In this document: piece after piece, positions 11,262-50,288 of the stretch | How the letters are laid out: every line of letters starts with the position of its first letter | Numbering within the stretch: position 1 is the first letter of the stretch | Assembly (NCBI RefSeq): GCF_004363075.1 | Contig: NZ_SNYN01000003.1 | Coordinates: 62,001 to 126,000 of the forward strand | Reading direction: 5' to 3' | DNA length: 64,000 nt | DNA from: Actinorugispora endophytica | Lineage (GTDB): Bacteria > Actinomycetota > Actinomycetes > Streptosporangiales > Streptosporangiaceae | Made by a program: the position numbers and the translations under genes | Notes under the pieces: generated by a model | Databases searched by the model: none | What the model was told of the DNA's origin: nothing | Seen by the model: the letters and a program-made list of their open reading frames with translations, nothing else

Positions 11262-12407
11262 CTAGCGGTCCAGTTGGCGCCTGATGGGACGGAGGATCTG
11301 GTCGATGGTGCTCCAGTCGGGGTCCAGGGCGCTGGTGATCTGGACCTTTCCCTCGGACCAGCCGCGCGCGGCCTTCTCGAACTCGGGAAGGACGCCCGAC
11401 TCGGGGTCCAGGTAGAAGTGGAAGGTCCGCTGCCCGCCGACGGTCTGCTGGGCGAACAGGGCGCCGTTCGCGCCGAGCAGCTCGCGCAGGCCCAGGGCGT
11501 AGGCGTCCAGGGCGGAGGCGGAGGAGCCGGCGGGCAGCCGGTCCTCGTCGCTCTCGCCGTAGGCCGTCGTGACCTGCACGTACAAGGAGAGCGCGGGGTA
11601 GTCGCGCCGGTGCAGCGGGTGCCGCGCCGTGATCTGGAGGGCGCCGCGCAGCGGTATCCGGCCCTGGAAGGTCACCCAGCCGCCACTGGCGCCCACACCG
11701 GACAGCTGCTGCACCACCGAGGGGATCGAGGTGGGCGGCAGGGGGTCCAAGGGCTTCTCCACCAGCGGGTTCACCGAGGAGACCCAGCGCACGAAGTCGT
11801 CCTCGCCCAGGGCCAGCATCGCCACGTGCTCGGAGACCCCGCGCTGGACCTCCTCGGGCAGGAACATGAAGTCGGGGTGGTAGACGCCGATCTCGATCCG
11901 CCCGCTGGCGTGGTCCACGCGCAGCGCCACCGACGTGTGCGACAGGTCCAGTTCGTGGTCGTCCCAGGTCGTCGGCCGGACGAGCCCGGTGTGGTCCGCG
12001 GGGACGGCCGGGAAGAACGTCCAGTCGGCGTCCGGCGGCGCGGCCCGGTACCAGCGCTCCGCCAGGACGCGGGCGTCGTCGTCGGCTCCGGCCGACAGGG
12101 TCAGCGCGTAGGAGGCGCTCGCCGAGGCGGGCGCGTCCAGGCGGGCGAACAGCGCGTCGGGGTCGTCGAAGGAGGCGGTCAGGTCGATCGGGTCCGGGGT
12201 CGGCGCGCGGGACACCTCCCAGCGGAGGTTCGGGTGGATGCGCCGGACGCGTTCGCCGAGCAGTTCGGAGGTCTCGTCGGGCACGGGTGTCCCCGCGTCG
12301 ACGGACGACGCCAGGGCGTCGCGGAGGTCGGCCCACTGGGACCAGAAGCCGTCGACGGCGACGGCGGTTTCGGAGTCGGCTGGGCGGCGGCGACGGAACA
12401 GAGCCAT
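11262..12407 (-). CDS. DUF695-like protein of unknown function
   Basis: A soluble protein of 381 residues with no signal peptide or membrane helix. The N-terminus is basic (MALFRRRRPADSE). The C-terminal third, with YPALSLYVQVTTAYGESDEDRLP, then LRELLGANGALFAQQTVGGQRTFHFYLDPES, has the shape of the DUF695 family. The assignment rests on general resemblance. No catalytic residues can be named. It is convergent with the cysteine desulfurase and divergent from mnmA, splitting that functional pair. Confidence 0.7.
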   Translation of the reverse strand: MALFRRRRPADSETAVAVDGFWSQWADLRDALASSVDAGTPVPDETSELLGERVRRIHPNLRWEVSRAPTPDPIDLTASFDDPDALFARLDAPASASASYALTLSAGADDDARVLAERWYRAAPPDADWTFFPAVPADHTGLVRPTTWDDHELDLSHTSVALRVDHASGRIEIGVYHPDFMFLPEEVQRGVSEHVAMLALGEDDFVRWVSSVNPLVEKPLDPLPPTSIPSVVQQLSGVGASGGWVTFQGRIPLRGALQITARHPLHRRDYPALSLYVQVTTAYGESDEDRLPAGSSASALDAYALGLRELLGANGALFAQQTVGGQRTFHFYLDPESGVLPEFEKAARGWSEGKVQITSALDPDWSTIDQILRPIRRQLDR

Positions 12408-14230: not shown

Positions 14231-14501
14231 GCCGGGGCCGGGGCGGTGGCTCCGAGCGGCCTCCGCCACGCCGGAGACGGCCCTCCGGTTGGCCGAATGA
14301 GGCCACCGAAGGCCCTTTGAGCAGGAGATCCGTCCGGGTCGTCCCGTTCTGCGTGTGGTGTCGGACGGAAAGCCACCGTCCCCTCTTTTTTGAGGATGGA
14401 TATCCGGTCGGGGCTCGGCGATGCTCGGGATTCGAACGGCTCGGCGACGTGCTGTAACGGCCGTGGTCCGCTGTCCCCCGATCGGAGAGGCCCCACCGCG
14501 C
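14231..14501. other. Upstream region of the vWA/PP2C/kinase operon
   Basis: Contains a weak hairpin after the DedA-like stop, an AT-rich stretch near 14380 (ctcttttttgagga), and GGAGAGG about ten bases before the vWA ATG. A short tRNA T-loop-like motif is discussed under rejected items. Confidence 0.35.
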
Positions 14502-15179
14502 ATGCAGGGTTTGACCTACGGTGTCGACATCGTCTTCTGCATCGATGCCACCGGCAGCATGTATCCCATCATCGACCGGGTCAAGGAAAGCGCTTTGCGC
14601 TTCCATGAAGACCTGCGACGGGTGATGGATGACAAAAGCAAGAGCATCGACTCGCTGAGGGTTCGGGCCGTGGTCTACCGCGACTACTACTTCGACGACC
14701 TCTCCAAGGCGATGGAGGCCTCGGAATTCTTCTCGCTGCCGCAGCAGGCATCGGACTTCTCCCGCTTCGTCGACGGCATCACGGCGACCGGTGGCGGTGA
14801 CGAGCCGGAGAACGGCCTGGAGGCGCTGGCTGTGGCGATGCGCTCGAACTGGGCCGTCGACAGCGACAAGCGCCGCCAGATCATCGTGGTCTGGACCGAT
14901 GCCAGTGTCCATCCGCTGGAGAGGAAGGCCGGAAGTAAGCCCGAGGGCTACCCCGAGGACCTTCCCGCCGACTTCGACGCGTTGACCGACATGTGGGAAG
15001 GCCAGGAGCACATGGACCCCAACGCCAAACGGCTGATCGTTTACGCGCCGGACGCGCTGGGCTGGACCGAGATCGCCAACCACTGGGAGAACGTCATCCA
15101 CTTTCCCTCGCAGGGAGGCAAGGGGCTGGAGGAGGTCGACTACTCCACGATCCTCGACACCATCGCCAACAGCATCTGA
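14502..15179 (+). CDS. von Willebrand factor A domain protein (first gene of vWA/PP2C/kinase operon)
   Basis: A 225-residue protein made almost entirely of one vWA domain, with no signal or membrane segment, so cytosolic. The MIDAS metal site begins DIVFCIDATGSM (Asp15, Ser19). The third-strand acidic motif appears as GGGDEPENGLEAL and the later strand as IIVVWTDASVH. The family normally mediates metal-dependent protein contacts. ATG 14502 is chosen because GGAGAGG precedes it and homology-like sequence starts at YGVDIVF; an in-frame ATG at 14421 is less likely. Sixteen bases separate it from the PP2C gene. The GC content of the operon is visibly lower than its neighbours. Confidence 0.88.
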   Translation: MQGLTYGVDIVFCIDATGSMYPIIDRVKESALRFHEDLRRVMDDKSKSIDSLRVRAVVYRDYYFDDLSKAMEASEFFSLPQQASDFSRFVDGITATGGGDEPENGLEALAVAMRSNWAVDSDKRRQIIVVWTDASVHPLERKAGSKPEGYPEDLPADFDALTDMWEGQEHMDPNAKRLIVYAPDALGWTEIANHWENVIHFPSQGGKGLEEVDYSTILDTIANSI

Positions 15180-15195
15180 AGGCCGGTCCGAATCG

Positions 15196-16254
15196 ATGGT
15201 GATGCGACGGCTGCACTTGACGATCCAGATCGACAGGGAGGGGTCGAGGGAAGACGCGCCACCGCTGTGCGAGGCCATCGGGAGGACAACGGTCCTCGGT
15301 GTCTTCGACGGTCTCGGCGGGGCCGGCGCGGTGGGCTACCAGACCCCGAACGGGACGTTCAGTGGAGCCTACCTGGCGTCCCGCAGAGTCAGAAGCTCTG
15401 TCCGAGAGTGGTCGTACGAGGTTCTCCGCTCAGGGGAGATACCCCCCGACGCGGGCTCAAGGCTGGAACAGCGCATCAGGAAGGACCTGAACGAGTACTC
15501 CAGGTCGCTGCGGCCTTCAGGAAGCCGGTTGCGCAGTTCGATGCTGCGGACCCTGCCCACCACGTTGACGGTGCTCGCCGTGTCGGAGGTTGGGAGGCCG
15601 GAGCCGGAGGTCGGGAACAGCGCTGACGGCCTTCCATCGAAAGTCGTCTGCCGGTATTTCTGGGCCGGGGACTCGCGAGGCTACCTCCTGTCTCCGGATG
15701 CCGGACTCCAGCAGTTGACCCGAGACCACCTCAAAGGGTCCCCCGACGCCTACGAGAACCTCTCCGCCGACTCCCCCCTGTCCAACTGCGTCTGCGCGGA
15801 CCGTCCCTTCCGCCTGTCCGAAGCCTCCGTCAACGGAAGGACTGCGGCCGTGTTTCTCGCGGCTACGGACGGCTGTTTCGGTTACCTGCAGAGCCCGGTC
15901 CTTTTCGAGGGGCTGCTCCTCGATACCCTGGCGGATTCCGACTCCGTCGGCGAGTGGCAGGACCGCCTCACGGCTGAAGTGGACCGGACCACCGGGGACG
16001 ACGCCACGCTTTCCGCGGTCGGTGTCGGTTTCTCCGGATTTCAGCAGATGAAGGAGTCCTTCGCGGTGCGGCGCGAACGGGTAGAGGACAGGGTCGGACC
16101 GCTTCGCGTGAGACAGGCCAGGCGCGACGAGCTTCGGTCGGAGGCCGAAGCGGCGGAGAAGGAGTACTCCGAAGCACTCCGCACCTCGTGGGACGAGTAC
16201 CGGAAGTCGTACGAAGCGATCCTCCCCTCCGAAGGGCTGGGAGGAACCTCGTGA
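15196..16254 (+). CDS. PP2C-family Ser/Thr phosphatase-like protein with C-terminal coiled coil
   Basis: Likely reverses phosphorylation by the kinase encoded directly downstream. In 352 residues the PP2C metal-site motifs are recognisable: VFDGLGGAG (36-44), WAGDSRGYLL (156-164), LAATDGCFGY (221-230) and TTGDDATLSAV (265-275). These supply the conserved aspartates, so activity is plausible. Residues from about 285 on are charged and helical (RRERVEDRV to EAEAAEKEYSEAL), probably a coiled coil for partner binding. The GTG of the kinase overlaps its stop, showing tight coupling. Confidence 0.85.
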   Translation: MVMRRLHLTIQIDREGSREDAPPLCEAIGRTTVLGVFDGLGGAGAVGYQTPNGTFSGAYLASRRVRSSVREWSYEVLRSGEIPPDAGSRLEQRIRKDLNEYSRSLRPSGSRLRSSMLRTLPTTLTVLAVSEVGRPEPEVGNSADGLPSKVVCRYFWAGDSRGYLLSPDAGLQQLTRDHLKGSPDAYENLSADSPLSNCVCADRPFRLSEASVNGRTAAVFLAATDGCFGYLQSPVLFEGLLLDTLADSDSVGEWQDRLTAEVDRTTGDDATLSAVGVGFSGFQQMKESFAVRRERVEDRVGPLRVRQARRDELRSEAEAAEKEYSEALRTSWDEYRKSYEAILPSEGLGGTS

Positions 16255-17330
16255 GCAGGTCCGTCGGGGGGTACCGGATCACCACCGACTTCACCACCGC
16301 GGGAGGGGGTCAGTGCCGATGGGCCTTCGCGGTCCGTGACGGTGACGAGTACTTCCTCAAGGAGTTCCTGGCACCCACGTATCCGATCCCCGAATCACCG
16401 GGTTCCGCCACGACGAAGGAGCGCAAGCTTCGGAAGTGCGAGAAGTTCGAGGAGCACCACCAGTCTGTCACCAGTGCTCTGGCCCCCCTTTCCAAAACGG
16501 GCGGGAACCTGGTCACCACGCGCGACTTCTTCCGGGAAGGGGCGAAGTACTACAAGGTGACGGAGAAGGTCGACGTCACCTCGCTCTCCCCGCGGATGAT
16601 CTCCCGTGAGCCGGTGGAGCGCAGGATCCTCGTTCTGCTCACGGTCGCCCACTCCTTGGAGATCCTGCACAGAGCAGGTCTGGTCCACGGAGACCTCAAA
16701 CCCGAGAACATCCTCATCAAGGAGACCGCCAAGGGGTACTACGCCGCCAAACTGATCGACTTCGACAACGCCTTCTTCTCCGGCCGACCGGTCCCGCCGG
16801 AGGACATGGTCGGGGACCCCAACTACTACTCGCCCGAGATCTTCGGCTACTTCAATGGGGGCGTCACGGGGGAGCGGTTGACGACGGCCTCGGACGTCTT
16901 CGCGTTGGGCCTGGTCGCCGCGCTTTTCCTGACCGGCCGGGGGGCGGCCTTCGAATCGGTGGCGGATGCCGGACGCTACCCGGGTGAACTCCGCGGAGCC
17001 GGTGCGGACTGCTCCACGGGCCTGCGACGGACGGCCCGGGCCGACGCTCTGATCCAGAGGATGCTGTCCGCGGACCCGGATGAGCGGCCGACCGCTCTCC
17101 AGGTCTTCGACGGGCTCAAGGAGCTCCGCACGGAGGCCAAGCGGACCGGCGGGTGGCCGAGGGAAACGGAGTCCGAGGGGCCCTCGACCGGACGCCGACT
17201 GCGAGGAAAGCTGCTGGAGGCGGCCGCCCCGGAGCCGGACGCGCCGAAGCACGCCGCGTCCGGAGCATCGGGGGAAGGCGGCCGGCTGCGCGGTAGCCTG
17301 CTCCGCGGGCGGGACTCCTCGTCCGCATGA
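16251..17330 (+). CDS. Atypical Ser/Thr protein kinase (HGD...DFD) of the vWA/PP2C operon
   Basis: A 359-residue cytosolic kinase. Motifs: candidate ATP-binding Lys37 (EYFLKEF), HGDLKPEN (146-153) with Gly in place of the usual Arg of HRD, DFD (170-172) in place of DFG, and SPE in the activation segment (NYYSPEIFG). The Gly-rich loop is unusual (TTAGGGQCRW). Asp148, Lys150, Asn153 and Asp170 are all kept, so catalysis is likely. The tail (about 290-359) is low-complexity and has two similar basic repeats (RRLRGKLLE and GRLRGSLLR). No membrane helix; membrane attachment may come from the next gene. Confidence 0.87.
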   Translation: MSRSVGGYRITTDFTTAGGGQCRWAFAVRDGDEYFLKEFLAPTYPIPESPGSATTKERKLRKCEKFEEHHQSVTSALAPLSKTGGNLVTTRDFFREGAKYYKVTEKVDVTSLSPRMISREPVERRILVLLTVAHSLEILHRAGLVHGDLKPENILIKETAKGYYAAKLIDFDNAFFSGRPVPPEDMVGDPNYYSPEIFGYFNGGVTGERLTTASDVFALGLVAALFLTGRGAAFESVADAGRYPGELRGAGADCSTGLRRTARADALIQRMLSADPDERPTALQVFDGLKELRTEAKRTGGWPRETESEGPSTGRRLRGKLLEAAAPEPDAPKHAASGASGEGGRLRGSLLRGRDSSSA

Positions 17331-17746
17331 ACAAGAGCTGCGCCGTCTGCGAGACCCTCAACCCCAGGCGCGCGTTTCGTTGCGCGGTCTGTGACGAGCG
17401 GCTCGAGGACGGGACACCCGCCTCCGCGGCTCTGCCAGCGACGGCCGAAGCAGGAGCACCGGGCGGGTCCGTGCTCTCCGAGGCCTCGGGGAGGAAGACC
17501 GAGTCCAGGCCGCTGGGCGAGCTCATCGGGGAGTACCCCTGGTACGGCCGGATCGTCATATGGCCGATCGTGGTGGTTCTCTTGGCCGTCCTCCTGTCCT
17601 TGATGGCGGTGTGGGGGGTTCTCGGATGGCTCTGGCGAGCCAGATGGGTCATCCTCCTCCTCGTGTTCTCCTTCCTGGTCGTCCTCTCGGGCCTGGCCGT
17701 CCTCTGGGAATCCTCGGTGATCTATGAGAGGTCCGGCGTGCCCTAA
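17327..17746 (+). CDS. Zinc-ribbon protein with two membrane helices (fourth gene of vWA/PP2C/kinase operon)
   Basis: A 139-residue protein. An N-terminal zinc ribbon (Cys5, Cys8, Cys19, Cys22 in CAVC and CAVC) is followed by a 40-residue flexible linker and two closely spaced hydrophobic helices (about 85-105 and 108-128) with a short tail. The ATG overlaps the kinase stop (ATGA). It could tether the kinase or phosphatase to the membrane or act as their substrate or sensor. This is inference from gene coupling and architecture. Its stop codon TAA forms part of the candidate -10 box of the next gene. Confidence 0.8.
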   Translation: MNKSCAVCETLNPRRAFRCAVCDERLEDGTPASAALPATAEAGAPGGSVLSEASGRKTESRPLGELIGEYPWYGRIVIWPIVVVLLAVLLSLMAVWGVLGWLWRARWVILLLVFSFLVVLSGLAVLWESSVIYERSGVP

Positions 17747-17749
17747 TCT
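17744..17749 (+). promoter_or_regulatory. Candidate -10 box (TAATCT), leaderless promoter of the MetE-like gene
   Basis: TAATCT ends eight bases before the GTG at 17758, with no Shine-Dalgarno sequence. It overlaps the stop codon of the preceding gene. Confidence 0.4.
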
Positions 17750-17757
17750 GTTGCATC

Positions 17758-45891: not shown

Positions 45892-46006
45892 GCGGCGACC
45901 TTTCTCGCGGGCGGTGGAATCGTTCTATTATCGCAGATCAGGCAAGTCCGTATTACGAAAGGGGCACGGTTCTGGCGCCTCCTTCGCCCTGCGCCGACGG
46001 GGTGGC

Positions 46007-46114
46007 CCGCCTCGGATCGGTCCTGGGCCCGGACGTGCTGGACGACCTCGAAGCCCCAGAGCTCGCTTCCGGTCGCGGCGGGGCCGCCGTCCCCGTTGTG
46101 CCCGTGCCCGGTAC
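46007..46114 (-). pseudogene. Fragment of a duplicated monooxygenase gene (C-terminal end)
   Basis: Matches 48012-48122 closely: both encode GPAATGSELWGFEVVQHVRAQD on the minus strand. Here the stop codon is altered (TGA to CGA) and the N-terminal 80 residues are absent. It abuts the transposase remnant. Confidence 0.8.
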
Positions 46115-46130
46115 ATGCCAAAGCCTCTGA

Positions 46131-46442
46131 AAACCCGGTACGGAACACAACTGCGAAACCGCCCTGGTCAAGACCCGCGCTCTGCTCAACGTACGCGGAA
46201 TCCGCGGCCGCATTGCGCACAGAAGCGGAAAGGCGCCGATCCAGACCAGCCGGCGGTGGCAAGCCGAACGCGTCCACGCATGGCGGAACGCCTTCTGTCG
46301 GCTCGCCCGCTGCTACGAGCGGTGCGCCACCGTGGTCGACGCGTTCTTCGACCTCGCCGAGATGATCATAACCGTGCGTAGCCTGATCCGCCAAGCATGG
46401 ACGACTCGCCGCTGGGGAGTACGCCCGAACCGTCGGCCATGA
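46131..46442 (+). mobile_element. IS5-type transposase remnant (C-terminal part)
   Basis: The open frame from 46131 to the TGA at 46440-46442 reads, after a short lead, ALVKTRALLNVRGIRGRIA, APIQTSRRWQAERVHAWRNA, then CRLARCYERC, DAFFDLAEMIITVRSLIRQ and WTTRRWG. This is the C-terminal pattern of IS5-family transposases, with the late catalytic-region ER. No start, no N-terminal DDE parts and no inverted repeats were found, so it is a dead fragment. Confidence 0.8.
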
Positions 46443-46450
46443 CCGCACGC

Positions 46451-46954
46451 CTACCCTGCGGACTTTCGCAGACCCAAATCCGGCGGATCGCTGAAGATGT
46501 CAGCCAGGGAAGCCTTCTGGGCGCGATCTGCATTGGAGCGTCCCGCTGGAGGCGAATCAGAAAGTTGATTCGTCCCGTCCGAAGTCGAGGAACCCGTTAC
46601 GTTCGCCAGGAATTTCTGGTTGACCTCGATGAGGTGGTCAAGTGCTTCCCTGGCGGCGGCCAGACTGTCAATCGTGGATGAAAGGCGGGTCCGCTCCTCA
46701 TTCATCGCCGTCGATGCCTGCCGGGCCCTGTCCATGTCGGGATGCGTCATGCAGGGGACCAACTGGGCGATGGTCCTACTGGACATCCCGGCGGCCAGGA
46801 AGACCCGGATCAGCGCCACCCGCTGGACGTGCCCGTCGTCGTAGCGCCGCTGGCCGCTGGGGGACCTTGTGCTGGCCAGCAGACCCTGCTGCTCGTAGTA
46901 GCGCAGCGAACGACGGCTCGCTCCCGTCCGGGCGGACAGTTCACCGATCCGCAT
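46451..46954 (-). CDS. MerR-family transcriptional regulator
   Basis: A 167-residue regulator. Winged helix-turn-helix at the N-terminus (MRIGELSARTGASRRSLRYYEQQGLL, then SGQRRYDDGHVQRVALIRVFLAAG), a dimerisation coiled coil (MNEERTRLSSTIDSLAAAREALDHLIE) and a variable tail without the cysteines of metal sensors. ATG 46954 follows GAGAGG. Divergently transcribed from the EthD-domain gene, with a MerR-like long-spacer promoter between them, so it likely controls that gene. Composition is AT-richer than the core genome, which suggests acquisition. Confidence 0.9.
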   Translation of the reverse strand: MRIGELSARTGASRRSLRYYEQQGLLASTRSPSGQRRYDDGHVQRVALIRVFLAAGMSSRTIAQLVPCMTHPDMDRARQASTAMNEERTRLSSTIDSLAAAREALDHLIEVNQKFLANVTGSSTSDGTNQLSDSPPAGRSNADRAQKASLADIFSDPPDLGLRKSAG

Positions 46955-46993
46955 CTCAACCTCTCGTGTGCATTGGGTCACAGCGACTTGCCC

Positions 46994-47024
46994 TTGACGT
47001 CGATGTGAGCGTTTAGGTTAAACC
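46994..47024 (+). promoter_or_regulatory. MerR-type promoter candidate with 19-base spacer and dyad
   Basis: TTGACG (46994-46999) and TAAACC (47019-47024) are 19 bases apart, the overlong spacing typical of MerR-activated promoters. The dyad GTTTA GGT TAAAC (47011-47023) lies in the spacer and overlaps the -10. Confidence 0.5.
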
Positions 47025-47102
47025 CAATGGCCCGCGACCCGCTTCCAGGGCGTCAGGTCGCTGGCCTCCCGCGTCCACGAGAGCACGAAAGTGGAGAAGT
47101 CA

Positions 47103-47438
47103 TTGATCAAGTTCGCCTTCATGGTCAACCGTGTCGATGGAATGGCCTTCGAGGAATTCGTTGAGCACCACCGAAACCGCCACGCCCCGTTGTTCGCCTC
47201 CATCCCGGAAGCGCGGCAGTATGTGAAGAGGTACGCCGTCTCTCATCCGGTTTCGGCTGAAGGGTACCCTGGTTCGGCCTACGACGGTCTCACCGAGATC
47301 TGGTTTGAAAGCTGGGCGGACCACGACGCTTTCTTTGCTTCCAAGAATTACAAAGAGCTGGTGAACCCGGACGAGGGCAAGTTCATCGATATGAATTCGG
47401 TGGCAGTAATGGTCACCGAAGAAAGGGTTGTGATCTAG
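47103..47438 (+). CDS. EthD-domain (dimeric alpha/beta barrel) protein
   Basis: A 111-residue small protein from the TTG at 47103 (MIKFAFMVNRVDGMAFEEFVEHHRNRH...), which has GGAG six bases upstream. GTG at 47091 would add four residues. It has the EthD pattern: an N-terminal strand, then the conserved EEFVEHHRNRHAPL helix and a C-terminal FIDMNSVAVMVTEE. Relatives take part in oxidation of xenobiotics or aromatic polyketides, often as helper proteins. Controlled in all likelihood by the divergent MerR gene. Confidence 0.85.
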   Translation: MIKFAFMVNRVDGMAFEEFVEHHRNRHAPLFASIPEARQYVKRYAVSHPVSAEGYPGSAYDGLTEIWFESWADHDAFFASKNYKELVNPDEGKFIDMNSVAVMVTEERVVI

Positions 47439-48021
47439 GGAAGCCCCGGCGCGGGGGTGGTCGGGGCTCTGTCGGGTCGGGGTCCGCTCGGGGTCTGTGA
47501 CGGCGGGCGGGGCCGGAGGTCCGCGCGTGCCCGCCAGGTGTCCGTGACGCGGCGGTTCGCGGGCCGGCCCTGCCCCGATCCGGAATGATCACGGGCTTTC
47601 TGCCCGTTTCGGGGCCGGGAAGGGCAGAAAGCCCACGACCGTCAACGGAACCCTCACGCGACGGACATCATGGGCGCGGCCCCGGCTCCCGCCCGCCGTC
47701 GCCGCTCGCCGTGACCTCGCGATCCGCGTGGCGTGAGGCCGAAAGACCCACCCGAAGCACCGGCACGCGAACCACCCCCGCGCCGGAACCTCCATAGTCC
47801 TTTGGCTTTTGAGTCAGGACAGGGGGGAACGACGAATCGGAAGCGTCCTTGAAGCGGCTCTCCTGGGCTTGTCGCGATAGGAGTTCGGCGCCCCGGCAGA
47901 AGCGGTGGCGCGCGCATCGAGCGCGAAGGGCTGTCCACGGCCACGGCGCCCCGTCTCCTCATCGAGGCCCGCAAGCCCCGCTGACCTATCCGGGAGGCGG
48001 GGTGCGGGCGTCCGCCTCGGA
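47439..48021. other. Intergenic region with hairpin and repeat copy 2
   Basis: 583 bases. It holds a 13-bp perfect inverted repeat gggctttctgccc/gggcagaaagccc (47593-47605 with 47622-47634) immediately followed by the second copy of the 71-base repeat. From 47800 on, sequence of unclear origin, possibly further gene remnants. No intact gene seen. Confidence 0.5.
47635..47705. repeat. Intergenic repeat, copy 2 (71-base conserved segment)
   Basis: Matches 27270-27340 at about 61 of 71 bases without gaps, 20 kb away. Both copies are preceded by a palindrome of different sequence. Confidence 0.75.
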
Positions 48022-48548: not shown

Positions 48549-50288
48549 CTACAGCGGGGGGTAGGCGTTCTCCATCAGCTCCTGGAACTGGGCGGAGAAC
48601 CAGTGGCCGGAGACCGGCGCGTCGGGCAGGGCACCGCTCATGTTGTCGCCGTTGCGGGCGTTGCCCTCGTAGGTCGGGTCGCACATCCGGTCGAAGCCCT
48701 TGCCCTCGGGGTTCTCGATGAACTCGCTGGAGCCGTCGGACTCGCCCGGGGGCTTCATCCAGACGTAGGCGTCGATGCCGGGCTCGGGAGCCGCGGTGGG
48801 ACGCTCGCCCAGACCCGCGCCGGACTGGTTGCACCAGTTGCCCAGGTGGATGCGGCGGTCGTAGCGGCCGCCGTCGACGTAGGCGTTGACGTCGCTCGTC
48901 GAGCCGGGGCCGTCAGGCCGGTCGGGGCCGCCCCAGCCGTTGCGGGAGGTGTCGATCAGCATGCCGATGCCAGGATCGAAGCCCGTGGAGACGAGCTCCT
49001 CGCGCAGCGCCTGGGAGAAGGACAGCTCGTCGGTGTACCGGTTCCAGTCGACCCAGTCGGACTGGCGCACCATCTGGCCGTTGATGGTCTGGTCGATGGT
49101 GAAGTGGTCTTCCTGCAGGGCCGAGTAGTTGGCCGTGTTGGCGATGAAGCCGTGCACGTCGTCGGGGGTGGCGCCAGCGGCGTTGGCGGCCTCGTAGAAC
49201 TTGTCCGCCGAAGCCCCGAAGTTGTCGTCCCAGCCGATCCAGCCGTGGTGGCCGGCGTCGATGTAGTTGTAGACGTTGGGGATGTCGCCCAGCGTGGCCA
49301 GCGCGTAGCCGACGCCCTCGACGTAGTTGCCGTTGGCGAGCATCTCGTCGCACTCGGGGGTGGCGGTCGGGCGGCTGCCGACGTTGGTGACCAGGTTCGG
49401 CAGCGAGTCGATCTCGATGGTCGTCACGATCCGCAGGTCCGAGTACGCCGGGTCGCTCATGATCTCGGCGATCGGGTCGATGTACTCGTTCTTGTAGCGG
49501 TCGATCTCGTCGGGGCCGAGCTCGCCGTTGGAGGCCAGCGCGGCGCAGTCGCGGCCGGGCAGGTTGTAGATGACGATCTGGATCACCATCTCGCCGCCGT
49601 CGGCCTGCTCGACGGCCTCGTCGAGGTGGTCGCGCAGACCGTAGCTGCCGGTGGTGGGGCTGCCGTTGCCCTCGATCGCGCTGATCTGGTCCAGCCAGAC
49701 GCCGGTCGGCTGGTCGGCGACGCGGTCGCCGCCCGGCTCGGCGGCGGCGTTGGCCGACCAGATCGGGTTCACGTACACGTCGGCGCCCACATACGGGTTG
49801 TCGACGCGTTCACCCGGATCCGGGTCGGGGTCGGGGTCGGTCCCCGGGTCGGTCGAGCCGTCGCAGACGACGCCGTTCAGCGTGAAGGTGTCAGGGGCGG
49901 GGTTGCTCCCGGAGTAGGAGCCGTTGAAGCCGAACGTGACGGTGCCGTTCGTGCTCAGGGAGGCGTTGTGGGAGACGTTGCCTACGGTGACGTCCTGGCC
50001 GGACTGGCTGAGGGAGCCGTTCCACAGGTTCGTCACCTGCTGGTTGCCCGAGAAGCTCCACTCCAGGTCCCAGCCGTTGAGCGGGTCGCCCAGGTTGGTG
50101 ACGGAGACGTTGGCGGTGAAGCCCGAACCCCAGTCGTTGACCTGGTAGTCGACCGCGCAACCAGCGGCCGCGGCGGCGGGGGAGGATGTCGCGGCCACCA
50201 GCGAGGCGCCGAGCGCCAGGGTGGATGCGGCCGCGAGACCGCTCCGCGCCCACGAGCGTCTGCCCGTGGAACGGGGTAGTTCTCTCAT
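48549..50288 (-). CDS. Secreted cellulase/exoglucanase: CBM2 plus glycoside hydrolase family 6
   Basis: Exported cellulose-degrading enzyme of 579 residues. Signal peptide (1-42, ending AAAAA), CBM2 (about 44-142, with the Trp-rich CAVDYQVNDWGSGFTANVSV and GWDLEWSFSG), an acidic Pro linker (DPGTDPDPDPDPG), then a GH6 catalytic domain. Catalytic region seen as VIYNLPGRDCAALASNGEL (about residue 245, proton-network Asp) and TIEIDSLPNLVTN (about 293). The C-terminus has IDAYVWMKPPGESDGSS. Architecture and length resemble the Thermobifida exocellobiohydrolase Cel6B. Two CelR boxes upstream imply cellobiose induction. Confidence 0.94.
   Translation of the reverse strand: MRELPRSTGRRSWARSGLAAASTLALGASLVAATSSPAAAAAGCAVDYQVNDWGSGFTANVSVTNLGDPLNGWDLEWSFSGNQQVTNLWNGSLSQSGQDVTVGNVSHNASLSTNGTVTFGFNGSYSGSNPAPDTFTLNGVVCDGSTDPGTDPDPDPDPGERVDNPYVGADVYVNPIWSANAAAEPGGDRVADQPTGVWLDQISAIEGNGSPTTGSYGLRDHLDEAVEQADGGEMVIQIVIYNLPGRDCAALASNGELGPDEIDRYKNEYIDPIAEIMSDPAYSDLRIVTTIEIDSLPNLVTNVGSRPTATPECDEMLANGNYVEGVGYALATLGDIPNVYNYIDAGHHGWIGWDDNFGASADKFYEAANAAGATPDDVHGFIANTANYSALQEDHFTIDQTINGQMVRQSDWVDWNRYTDELSFSQALREELVSTGFDPGIGMLIDTSRNGWGGPDRPDGPGSTSDVNAYVDGGRYDRRIHLGNWCNQSGAGLGERPTAAPEPGIDAYVWMKPPGESDGSSEFIENPEGKGFDRMCDPTYEGNARNGDNMSGALPDAPVSGHWFSAQFQELMENAYPPL

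Follow-up and report, generated by a model that had tools for sequence, protein, structure and literature searches.

Triads of a vWA protein, a PP2C phosphatase and a Ser/Thr kinase are known from the TerY-P systems, stand-alone versions of which have been reported as antiphage. A kinase opposed by a PP2C phosphatase also forms the PpkA/PppA switch of type VI secretion, with its membrane output, and to our knowledge this pair has no vWA or finger protein of the kind described below. In TerY-P, a passage of PMC11090510 notes that the zinc ribbon can be on the kinase. Excerpts of PMC7159879 describe GAP1-N2 GTPase systems with a kinase, a PP2C and a stand-alone vWA, accompanied by a zinc ribbon or membrane helices, and an excerpt of PMC11341870 describes KKP, a prophage-borne kinase-kinase-phosphatase antiphage module. 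The window analyzed here, a stretch of 64,000 nucleotides from Actinorugispora endophytica, carries a four-gene operon which we read, with moderate confidence, as a horizontally acquired phospho-signalling module, one of a type that has reached seven phyla or more.

Gene content and protein features

The four genes lie at 14502-17746, with a gap of 16 bases between the vWA and PP2C genes and overlaps of 4 bases at both the PP2C/kinase and the kinase/finger gene junctions, as had been claimed in a preliminary description of this DNA. Their start codons are consistent with those of relatives.

14502..15179, + strand: vWA protein (putative adaptor), 225 aa; MIDAS-type metal site (DxTxS ... GGGDEPENG ... 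WTD)
15196..16254, + strand: PP2C phosphatase, 352 aa, with a long C-terminal helix; from invariant motifs and predicted fold
16251..17330, + strand: Ser/Thr kinase, 359 aa, GTG start, DFD replacing DFG; from Pfam Pkinase and alignment
17199..17216, + strand: kinase tail motif 1, LRGKLL; from the tail motif test
17286..17303, + strand: kinase tail motif 2, LRGSLL; from the tail motif test
17327..17746, + strand: zinc-finger membrane protein, 139 aa; from an 18-sequence alignment and hydropathy
17339..17392, + strand: RanBP2-like zinc finger, C-x2-C-x3-N-x6-C-x2-C; from sequence and alignment
17534..17674, + strand: two predicted membrane helices; from hydropathy windows at residues 70 and 98
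17738..17757, + strand: right edge of the insertion, the leader of a metE-like gene (GTGCCCTAA ... CATC-GTG); from relatives L090 and L094

The protein assignments first made for the operon, namely a MIDAS-type vWA, a PP2C-like phosphatase, a Ser/Thr kinase and a CxxC-x10-CxxC protein with two membrane helices, were all upheld. The vWA protein matches Pfam VWA_4 at 7.9e-10, and its metal-site residues D15, T17, S19, G97-D100 and D133 are invariant in an alignment of 17 sequences. The PP2C of the window received no PP2C score in the Pfam scan, and PP2C_2 was matched by eight of the 18 aligned PP2C members, the window copy not among them; however, the family profile finds solved PP2Cs and the predicted fold (pLDDT 91.3) matches the PP2C tPphA at an E-value of 2e-11. 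Residues D20, D38, D225 and D269, which we take to be metal ligands, are invariant across 30 sequences together with GDS. The kinase matches Pfam Pkinase at 1.1e-24 and its residues K37, H146, D148, K150, N153, D170, E196 and D215 are invariant in 40 aligned sequences.

The predicted fold of the kinase has a pLDDT of 87, falling below 50 at residues 313–356, and its tail is predicted to be disordered. This tail carries a short motif, often repeated, of which no earlier description was found. Using a pattern written post hoc, when all tails had already been inspected, the motif was detected in all 22 Actinomycetota tails (window counted, Coriobacteriaceae L063 left out) and in 25 of 33 other non-Bacillota tails, against a mean of 6.1 and a maximum of 12 in shuffled tails, and 18 of the 33 have it at least twice (shuffled mean 0.7). 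It is missing from eight of these 33 non-actinobacterial tails and from 11 of the 12 Bacillota/Coriobacteriaceae tails. Tails were delimited by a domain-end pattern, which failed for nine of 67; the last 60 residues were used for six of these and the last 75 for three.

RanBP2-type zinc fingers follow the consensus W-x-C-x2-4-C-x3-N-x6-C-x2-C. The finger of the window has C, C, N, C and C at this spacing, but K in place of W. These residues (C5, C8, N12, C19 and C22) are invariant in an alignment of 18 sequences from which cyanobacterial ones are absent; PF00641 was matched by seven of the 18, the window copy being unmatched. Two hydrophobic stretches follow the finger. Mean column identity, a crude measure in which longer and gappier alignments score lower, falls from 61% for the vWA to 36% for the kinase, 23% for the PP2C and 13% for the finger protein, as would be predicted if a fixed core carried a variable end.

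Recurrence of the gene set and origin of the operon

Sixty-six vWA-PP2C-kinase triads were identified across seven phyla; two of the triads are plasmid-borne. A triad was counted if all three profiles matched and the kinase scored above 200 bits; 22 of 77 scanned loci were dropped (partial contigs, lone vWA genes, weaker kinases and the five distant vWA matches L084–L088), as was G182 (L011/L113) from the family matches, and both the window and the later-found L162 stand outside the 66. The three genes are co-oriented in every triad and follow the order vWA-PP2C-kinase in 52. In four Bacteroidota genomes the fetched vWA locus does not include the kinase, and three genomes with the vWA (two Paractinoplanes and one Glaciihabitans MAG) gave no kinase match at 1e-25; apart from these seven exceptions the homologs mostly occur as triads and not as scattered single genes.

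An ORF with two CxxC pairs is found downstream on the same strand in 51 of the 66 triads, compared with two on the opposite strand and nine upstream, a linkage that exceeds chance. For the remaining 15 triads, including L012 and L013, two of the nearest by vWA, the 3 kb downstream contain no ORF of this kind. In 29 of the 51 the ORF overlaps the triad or lies within 15 bases of it, and in all 51 the finger falls within the first 60 residues. A membrane helix is predicted in 28 of these proteins and in none of the other 23; 36 have a helix or a multi-helix neighbor. The exact x3-N-x6 form is present in 28 of the 51, and N with x5-x7 in 38 (36 of these with W). In 13 cyanobacterial fingers the spacing is x12 and the N is missing, so a common finger family for all triads is not established. 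The proposal that a four-gene set recurs at varying sites is borne out by these counts, and the claim of a phospho-signalling set agrees with this recurrence and with the invariant catalytic residues of the kinase and PP2C.

The operon is an insertion at its present site. Among seven relatives with the same neighboring genes, six lack the operon and the seventh holds other genes there (six of 13 VTT matches in relatives had no adjoining mnmA and were left out of this comparison). The leader block before the metE-like start is shared with L090 and L094, GTGCCCTA is absent from L112, the relative with the other insert, and the finger gene seems to end in codons that belong to the host. The left edge could not be placed by comparison with relatives. 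The GC content of the four genes is 62–68% (GC3 82–87%), against 72–76% (GC3 92–97%) in mnmA, VTT, the metE-like gene and ligA, the flanking genes scanned with Pfam.

The vWA is of foreign origin and the operon was gained by gene transfer: the window vWA is 68% identical to that of Thermonema and is nested in a Bacteroidota clade with support of 98/82. The kinase and PP2C trees did not place the window copies, and joint transfer of all four genes is therefore only likely. Occurrence of the vWA is sporadic, in 11 of 200 family genomes and three of 396 phylum genomes, its own genome being in both counts. The lower GC was confirmed, and the acquisition it had been taken to suggest is supported.

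Possible roles of the module

The best reading of these data is a mobile, often membrane-linked kinase/phosphatase switch, in which the vWA is an adaptor and the variable finger protein a plug-in input or output. We infer the interactions, direction of signalling, trigger and target of this switch as follows. The kinase and PP2C would act antagonistically, as on and off, upon common substrates, and the vWA, the most conserved part, may be an adaptor that depends on metal and keeps hold of the complex or of a peptide partner. The disordered kinase tail could dock on a partner in the complex through its short motif or motifs. The constant N-terminal finger would plug into the kinase/PP2C/vWA core, and the variable C-terminal part of the same protein, which consists of membrane helices here and of other domains elsewhere, would act as sensor or output, linking the switch to the membrane or to some other partner. 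The membrane partners of other triads, DUF4407 proteins and the type VII secretion genes of L062, fit this reading. With its constant finger, recurrent tail motif and variable ends, the family makes the wiring of such triads testable.

It is possible, though doubtful, that the operon serves anti-phage defence of the abortive kind. By analogy with KKP, for which an excerpt of PMC11341870 provides a precedent, the free kinase would be toxic and restrained by the PP2C, infection would unbalance the pair, and the two-helix finger protein would be the membrane target or pore. The sporadic occurrence, the other cargo at the insertion site in one relative and the plasmid copies are consistent with this, the Herpetosiphon plasmid triad having a resolvase 0.6 kb downstream and a transposase ~7 kb upstream. 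Phage collections yielded three records, one of them matching over the full length; this one is an unverified clone labelled as phage, in which an integrase gene lies ~0.9 kb from the triad, and in Taibaiella a TIR gene is the second gene upstream of the vWA. However, the triad is nearly absent from viral contigs, which gave a single distant match, and many homologs lie amid housekeeping genes. Nor did the placement in defence islands that had been suggested hold up: triad neighbors matched 30 PADLOC families and control genes 83 (1e-15, 120 proteins each), a coarse comparison since families and not proteins were counted and single proteins match many families. For the triads, genes were sampled randomly out of the 199 closest to 54 loci (348 lay within 5 kb), with 12 near-duplicate loci dropped, and the control sample was 120 of 127 genes from 13 stretches of the same genomes (20 asked for, seven contigs too short). 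Known defence families are not enriched beside the triads.

The control matches seem to be mostly due to one type I specificity subunit and one Cas12-like protein.

Among the matches listed for the window operon with PADLOC 2.0.0 (best 25 of 35) only the kinase scores, with mad6, MkoA and PD-T4-6 best. The vWA and PP2C of the plasmid R478 TerY-P triad, the one reference used, were likewise unmatched, and the search, which had been suggested earlier, therefore says little. PADLOC saw general kinase matches only in both sets, and missing PADLOC matches should not be taken to mean that such systems are absent.

A regulator of membrane stress or secretion, akin to the kinase/phosphatase pair of type VI secretion and with no part in defence, is a comparably tentative suggestion. 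In L062 type VII secretion genes lie directly downstream of the triad, encoding YukD and an FtsK/SpoIIIE-type ATPase and followed by a WXG100-like gene (labelled by eye), and an FHA-ABC protein is found near the L057 triad. Homologous membrane proteins lie downstream in eight Bacteroidota/Treponema loci, with DUF4407 in both of the loci scanned singly; a DUF4407 protein accounts for six of the 120 triad neighbors scanned. PppA of the type VI system (structure 6jkv) is also rank 10 among the fold matches of the window PP2C. Against this, the partners vary by lineage, the operon of the window is uncoupled from secretion or envelope genes, and a sparse, transferred distribution would be unusual for a housekeeping regulator.

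Relationship to described systems

Membership of the TerY-P triads is very improbable and was ruled out, although the three folds and the order vWA-PP2C-kinase are common to the window and plasmid R478. The kinship that had been proposed was not found: with E-values scaled to 1000 sequences, the window vWA scored 9.4, 11 and 63 against the three vWAs of the R478 cluster and the PP2C at best 38 against the R478 set, compared with 6.9e-7 for the kinase. Family profiles against six sequences gave 0.033 for the best vWA, 1.1e-4 for the PP2C and 1.6e-12 for the kinase. No TerY_C, and no zinc ribbon or OB fold fused to the kinase or vWA, was seen in the Pfam scan of the operon. TerY_C was found in none of 120 family genomes, a search that shows little as the profile matched no control either. 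There are no linked Ter, CoCoNuT or restriction genes among the scanned flanks (mnmA, VTT, metE-like, ligA), so the absence of adjoining Ter genes was correctly noted at the outset.

It is equally hard to maintain that the operon represents the accessory set of kinase, PP2C and vWA that belongs to GAP1-N2 GTPase systems, in which excerpts of PMC7159879 place the same three kinds of protein. Ten other family genomes have the vWA, and seven of them contain a GAP1-N2 gene somewhere, but on another contig or more than 300 kb away, and none was found in the genome of the window (G000). Outside the family it occurs in one of 40 triad genomes and one of two lone-vWA genomes, many of these being incomplete MAGs. 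None of 36 GAP1-N2 loci was matched by the window vWA or PP2C profile at 0.01 (kinase profile, four of 36), and this linkage was also ruled out. The sole GAP1-N2 triad that is fully readable, L164, scores 8.1e-17, 3.7e-11 and 5e-10 with its vWA against the three R478-cluster vWAs and 1.1e-25 with its kinase against TerY-P, compared with 60 and 0.37, respectively, against the window. Judged by sequence, the TerY-P and GAP1-N2 triads are alike in vWA and kinase, and the window vWA and PP2C match neither. That the genes are chance neighbors or a vertically inherited local operon has practically no standing: nothing was found in its favor, and it is contradicted by the 66 triads, the finger-ORF linkage in 51 of them and the lack of the operon at this site in all seven relatives.

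With PpkA/PppA, compared by description, the acquired module shares a kinase opposed by a PP2C phosphatase and a membrane output. For KKP the offsetting of kinase toxicity by a phosphatase, as given in an excerpt of PMC11341870, may serve as a working analogy; that description has two kinases and mentions no vWA or finger protein, and the operon, with one kinase, is set apart from it on this basis. The GAP1-N2 set, as excerpted in PMC7159879, likewise has a kinase, a PP2C, a stand-alone vWA and a zinc ribbon or membrane helices, but the window lacks GAP1-N2, and L164, the example, belongs to the TerY type. In TerY-P of R478 a single operon encodes the vWA, the PP2C and the Ser/Thr kinase in identical order, and a zinc-binding part is present as well; this system differs in that the vWA and PP2C have no sequence kinship, the kinase likeness is general to kinases, and TerY_C sits on a vWA, whereas the zinc part of the window is a separate finger protein. 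Speculatively, the operon could represent a third, independently evolved vWA-PP2C-kinase lineage with its own mobile immune or stress switch, in which a PP2C-restrained kinase would assemble on a MIDAS adaptor by way of tandem tail motifs, and a constant RanBP2-like finger would connect it to outputs that can be exchanged, such as two-helix proteins, DUF4407 pairs or type VII secretion. The operon extends the known vWA-PP2C-kinase triads by a family of its own, which has been transferred widely and has a finger-bearing protein as fourth component.

The four coupled genes and their products

The layout given in the preliminary description was reproduced with identical coordinates and couplings: a 16-base gap lies between the vWA and PP2C genes, followed by 4-base overlaps between PP2C and kinase and between kinase and finger protein.

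Genes of the operon (window coordinates)
14502-15179, forward strand: vWA gene (Pfam VWA_4, E 7.9e-10)
15196-16254, forward strand: PP2C gene (relatives, profile match, fold model)
16251-17330, forward strand: kinase gene, GTG start (Pfam Pkinase, E 1.1e-24)
17327-17746, forward strand: finger protein gene (N-terminal finger, two predicted helices)

An alternative vWA frame opens earlier, at 14421; in the alignment the nearest relatives start at the MQGL of 14502. A Pfam scan of the window's PP2C copy gave no match to the PP2C domain, and its identity follows from PP2C_2 matches in 8 of 18 aligned family members, from the recovery of solved PP2Cs by a search with the family profile (best E 8.3e-7) and from a predicted structure (pLDDT 91.3) whose top fold match was tPphA (E 2e-11). 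Residues D20, D38, D225 and D269, which we take to be the metal ligands, are invariant in 30 aligned PP2C sequences, as are K37, H146, D148, K150, N153, D170 and E196 in 40 aligned kinases, the window kinase carrying DFD in place of DFG. Given this invariance, both enzymes are probably catalytically active.

Apart from residues 313-356, the kinase was modelled with confidence. The tails of related kinases contain a short motif, frequently doubled (LRGKGL, RVRINL, KLKISM, IRISGNL). A five-residue pattern, devised after all tails had been viewed and therefore descriptive rather than blind, occurs in all 22 actinobacterial tails (the window included, Coriobacteriaceae locus L063 counted elsewhere) and in 25 of 33 other non-Bacillota tails (shuffled mean 6.1, maximum 12); 18 of these 33 hold at least two copies (shuffled mean 0.7). 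Among Bacillota and L063 it was present in 1/12 tails, not above shuffled sequence (1.5). By eye, a similar stretch was seen at the N-terminus of three Oscillospiraceae kinases (L036, L039, L043), and LRINI close to the C-terminus of the kinase of a phage-labelled clone.

The finger protein, for which a Pfam scan returned no match better than chance, begins with C-x2-C-x3-N-x6-C-x2-C. By its consensus this presumably resembles the RanBP2 finger; Pfam PF00641 matched 7 of 18 aligned finger proteins, the window copy not among them.

Recurrence of the set across bacteria

A genome scan with the window vWA yielded 77 loci, and a profile scan placed vWA, PP2C and kinase together (the triad) at 66: 55 of the scanned loci, nine same-family loci and two plasmids. 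With phylum labels as in the vWA tree and the window's family counted as Actinomycetota, these belong to Bacteroidota, Actinomycetota, Chloroflexota, Cyanobacteriota, Bacillota, Pseudomonadota and Spirochaetota. The three genes share a strand in all 66, mostly in the order vWA-PP2C-kinase (52/66); PP2C-kinase-vWA was found in ten, namely the nine same-family loci and Catellatospora, and other orders in four. Within 3 kb downstream on the same strand, 51 of the 66 triads have an ORF carrying two CxxC pairs, against 2/66 on the opposite strand and 9/66 upstream. The four-gene set is thus real and recurrent.

In these 51 ORFs the pairs are spaced by x10, as in the window (28), x9 (8), x11 (2) or x12 (13), the last confined to cyanobacterial ORFs (13/13). 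The asparagine of the finger is kept in 38 and missing from the 13 cyanobacterial ones. The region C-terminal to the finger varies, with a helix predicted in 28/51. Eight loci from Bacteroidota and Treponema continue with membrane proteins homologous to one another (DUF4407 in those scanned).

The vWA lies away from a 48-50% identical kinase in four Bacteroidota genomes, and a kinase search of three other genomes with the vWA found no such kinase. At the Cytophagales loci L014-L016 and L069 a solitary vWA is 60-63% identical to that of the window, with a matching kinase elsewhere in the genome, outside the locus. Several further contexts were observed. Family triads at L103-L108 (e.g., L105:7873-16795) are preceded by genes for a BTAD regulator, a protein of 747 aa that matches HEAT weakly and one of 384 aa with no Pfam match; a small gene nearby looks to us like DUF397. 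A Lachnospiraceae triad (L062:12690-18244) is followed directly by YukD, an FtsK/SpoIIIE-type ATPase and, by eye, a WXG100-like gene, that is, type VII secretion. The Taibaiella triad (L022) has a TIR gene in its context. Among the genes listed for the Herpetosiphon plasmid record, the triad's finger ORF (L126:12213-12461) is missing. The 12 kb phage-labelled clone (L162:109-5065) has the order PP2C-kinase-vWA, with a PemK-like toxin gene and an integrase gene nearby on the other strand.

Acquisition and the insertion site

The operon has been acquired, as had been proposed. Its vWA, present as a single copy in its own genome, occurs in 11/200 family genomes and 3/396 phylum genomes (own included in both). 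The other family copies are 45-48% identical to it, except one fragment (G182, 38%); the nearest vWA in the genome scan is that of Thermonema (68%). The vWA tree places the window within a Bacteroidota group (support 98/82), distant from its own family. The kinase and PP2C trees leave its position open, the former setting it apart from the own-family kinase clade. GC and GC3 are lower in the four genes than in their neighbors, in line with the lower GC first noticed by hand count. Elsewhere in the window, another low-GC stretch (65%, 46001-48000) adjoins the genes of a MerR regulator (46451-46981) and of a glycosyl hydrolase of family 6 that bears a cellulose-binding domain (48549-50288), and a DUF695 protein gene (11262-12407) is divergent from mnmA.

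Among 40 relatives searched, 13 had a VTT match, seven of these with the orthologous mnmA-VTT pair. In six of the seven the metE-like gene is reached without the operon, and the seventh carries a different insert (L112:4266-7923) with an XRE-DUF5753 regulator, DUF6879, a transglutaminase-like gene and a small gene; the site is therefore variable, and may be an insertion hotspot. In two of the six operon-free relatives (L090 and L094), GTGCCCTA plus CATCGTG or CCTCGTG stands right before the metE-like start. The final codons of the finger gene in the window are a GTGCCCTA/CATCGTG-type block, so that the right insertion edge is visible. We infer that the metE-like transcript is leaderless and that this block provides its -10 region.

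Proposed working and comparison with known systems

Alignments rank the vWA highest in conservation, then the kinase, then the PP2C, with the finger protein variable. This fixed core with its variable partner suggests, at the level of sequence, a switch with an exchangeable end, in which the kinase would be opposed by the PP2C, the vWA could act as a metal-dependent adaptor, the tail motifs may be docking elements of the kinase, and the finger protein would join the core to the membrane or another partner.

That the operon is an anti-phage defence system appears unlikely. The sporadic spread of the triad, its carriage on plasmids (in Herpetosiphon with a resolvase at 0.6 kb and a transposase at 7 kb), the integrase gene close to it in the unverified phage-labelled clone and the variable insertion site speak for such a role, for which the kinase-kinase-phosphatase module KKP (PMC11341870) offers a precedent. 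The defence-island setting named as support in the preliminary description did not emerge, however: in a coarse count at 1e-15, PADLOC families numbered 30 for 120 triad-neighbor proteins and 83 for 120 control proteins, which is no enrichment, and housekeeping genes are numerous among the neighbors (Pfam, best 25 of 119 families).

Apart from general kinase matches, PADLOC models recognise neither the window set nor the vWA and PP2C of the reference TerY-P triad on plasmid R478. In the literature covered, mostly outside subscription journals and at the level of titles and abstract openings, there was no account of such a vWA family plus finger, nor does the accessible part of a BREX paper (PMC12839542) mention a vWA-PP2C-kinase-finger set.

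Kinship to TerY-P, also considered earlier, is rejected, the window vWA and PP2C being without a match to the R478 set (E 9.4 and 38, Z 1000); the kinases match at E 6.9e-7 (Z 1000), a level usual among kinases. In R478 the zinc domain TerY_C sits on a vWA protein, whereas the window has no such domain. It likewise lacks a ribbon fused to the kinase, the type described in the CoCoNuT paper (PMC11090510). GAP1-N2 systems have an accessory kinase-PP2C-vWA set, according to PMC7159879. This candidate is also rejected, as the window's vWA or PP2C was found in 0/36 GAP1-N2 loci; its kinase profile matched in four. GAP1-N2 was present anywhere in the genome in 1/40 triad genomes outside the family and in 7/10 other family vWA genomes, but there on another contig or >300 kb off. 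The complete GAP1-N2 triad at L164 is TerY-like against R478 (vWA 8.1e-17, kinase 1.1e-25, PP2C only 0.21) and unlike the set of the window.
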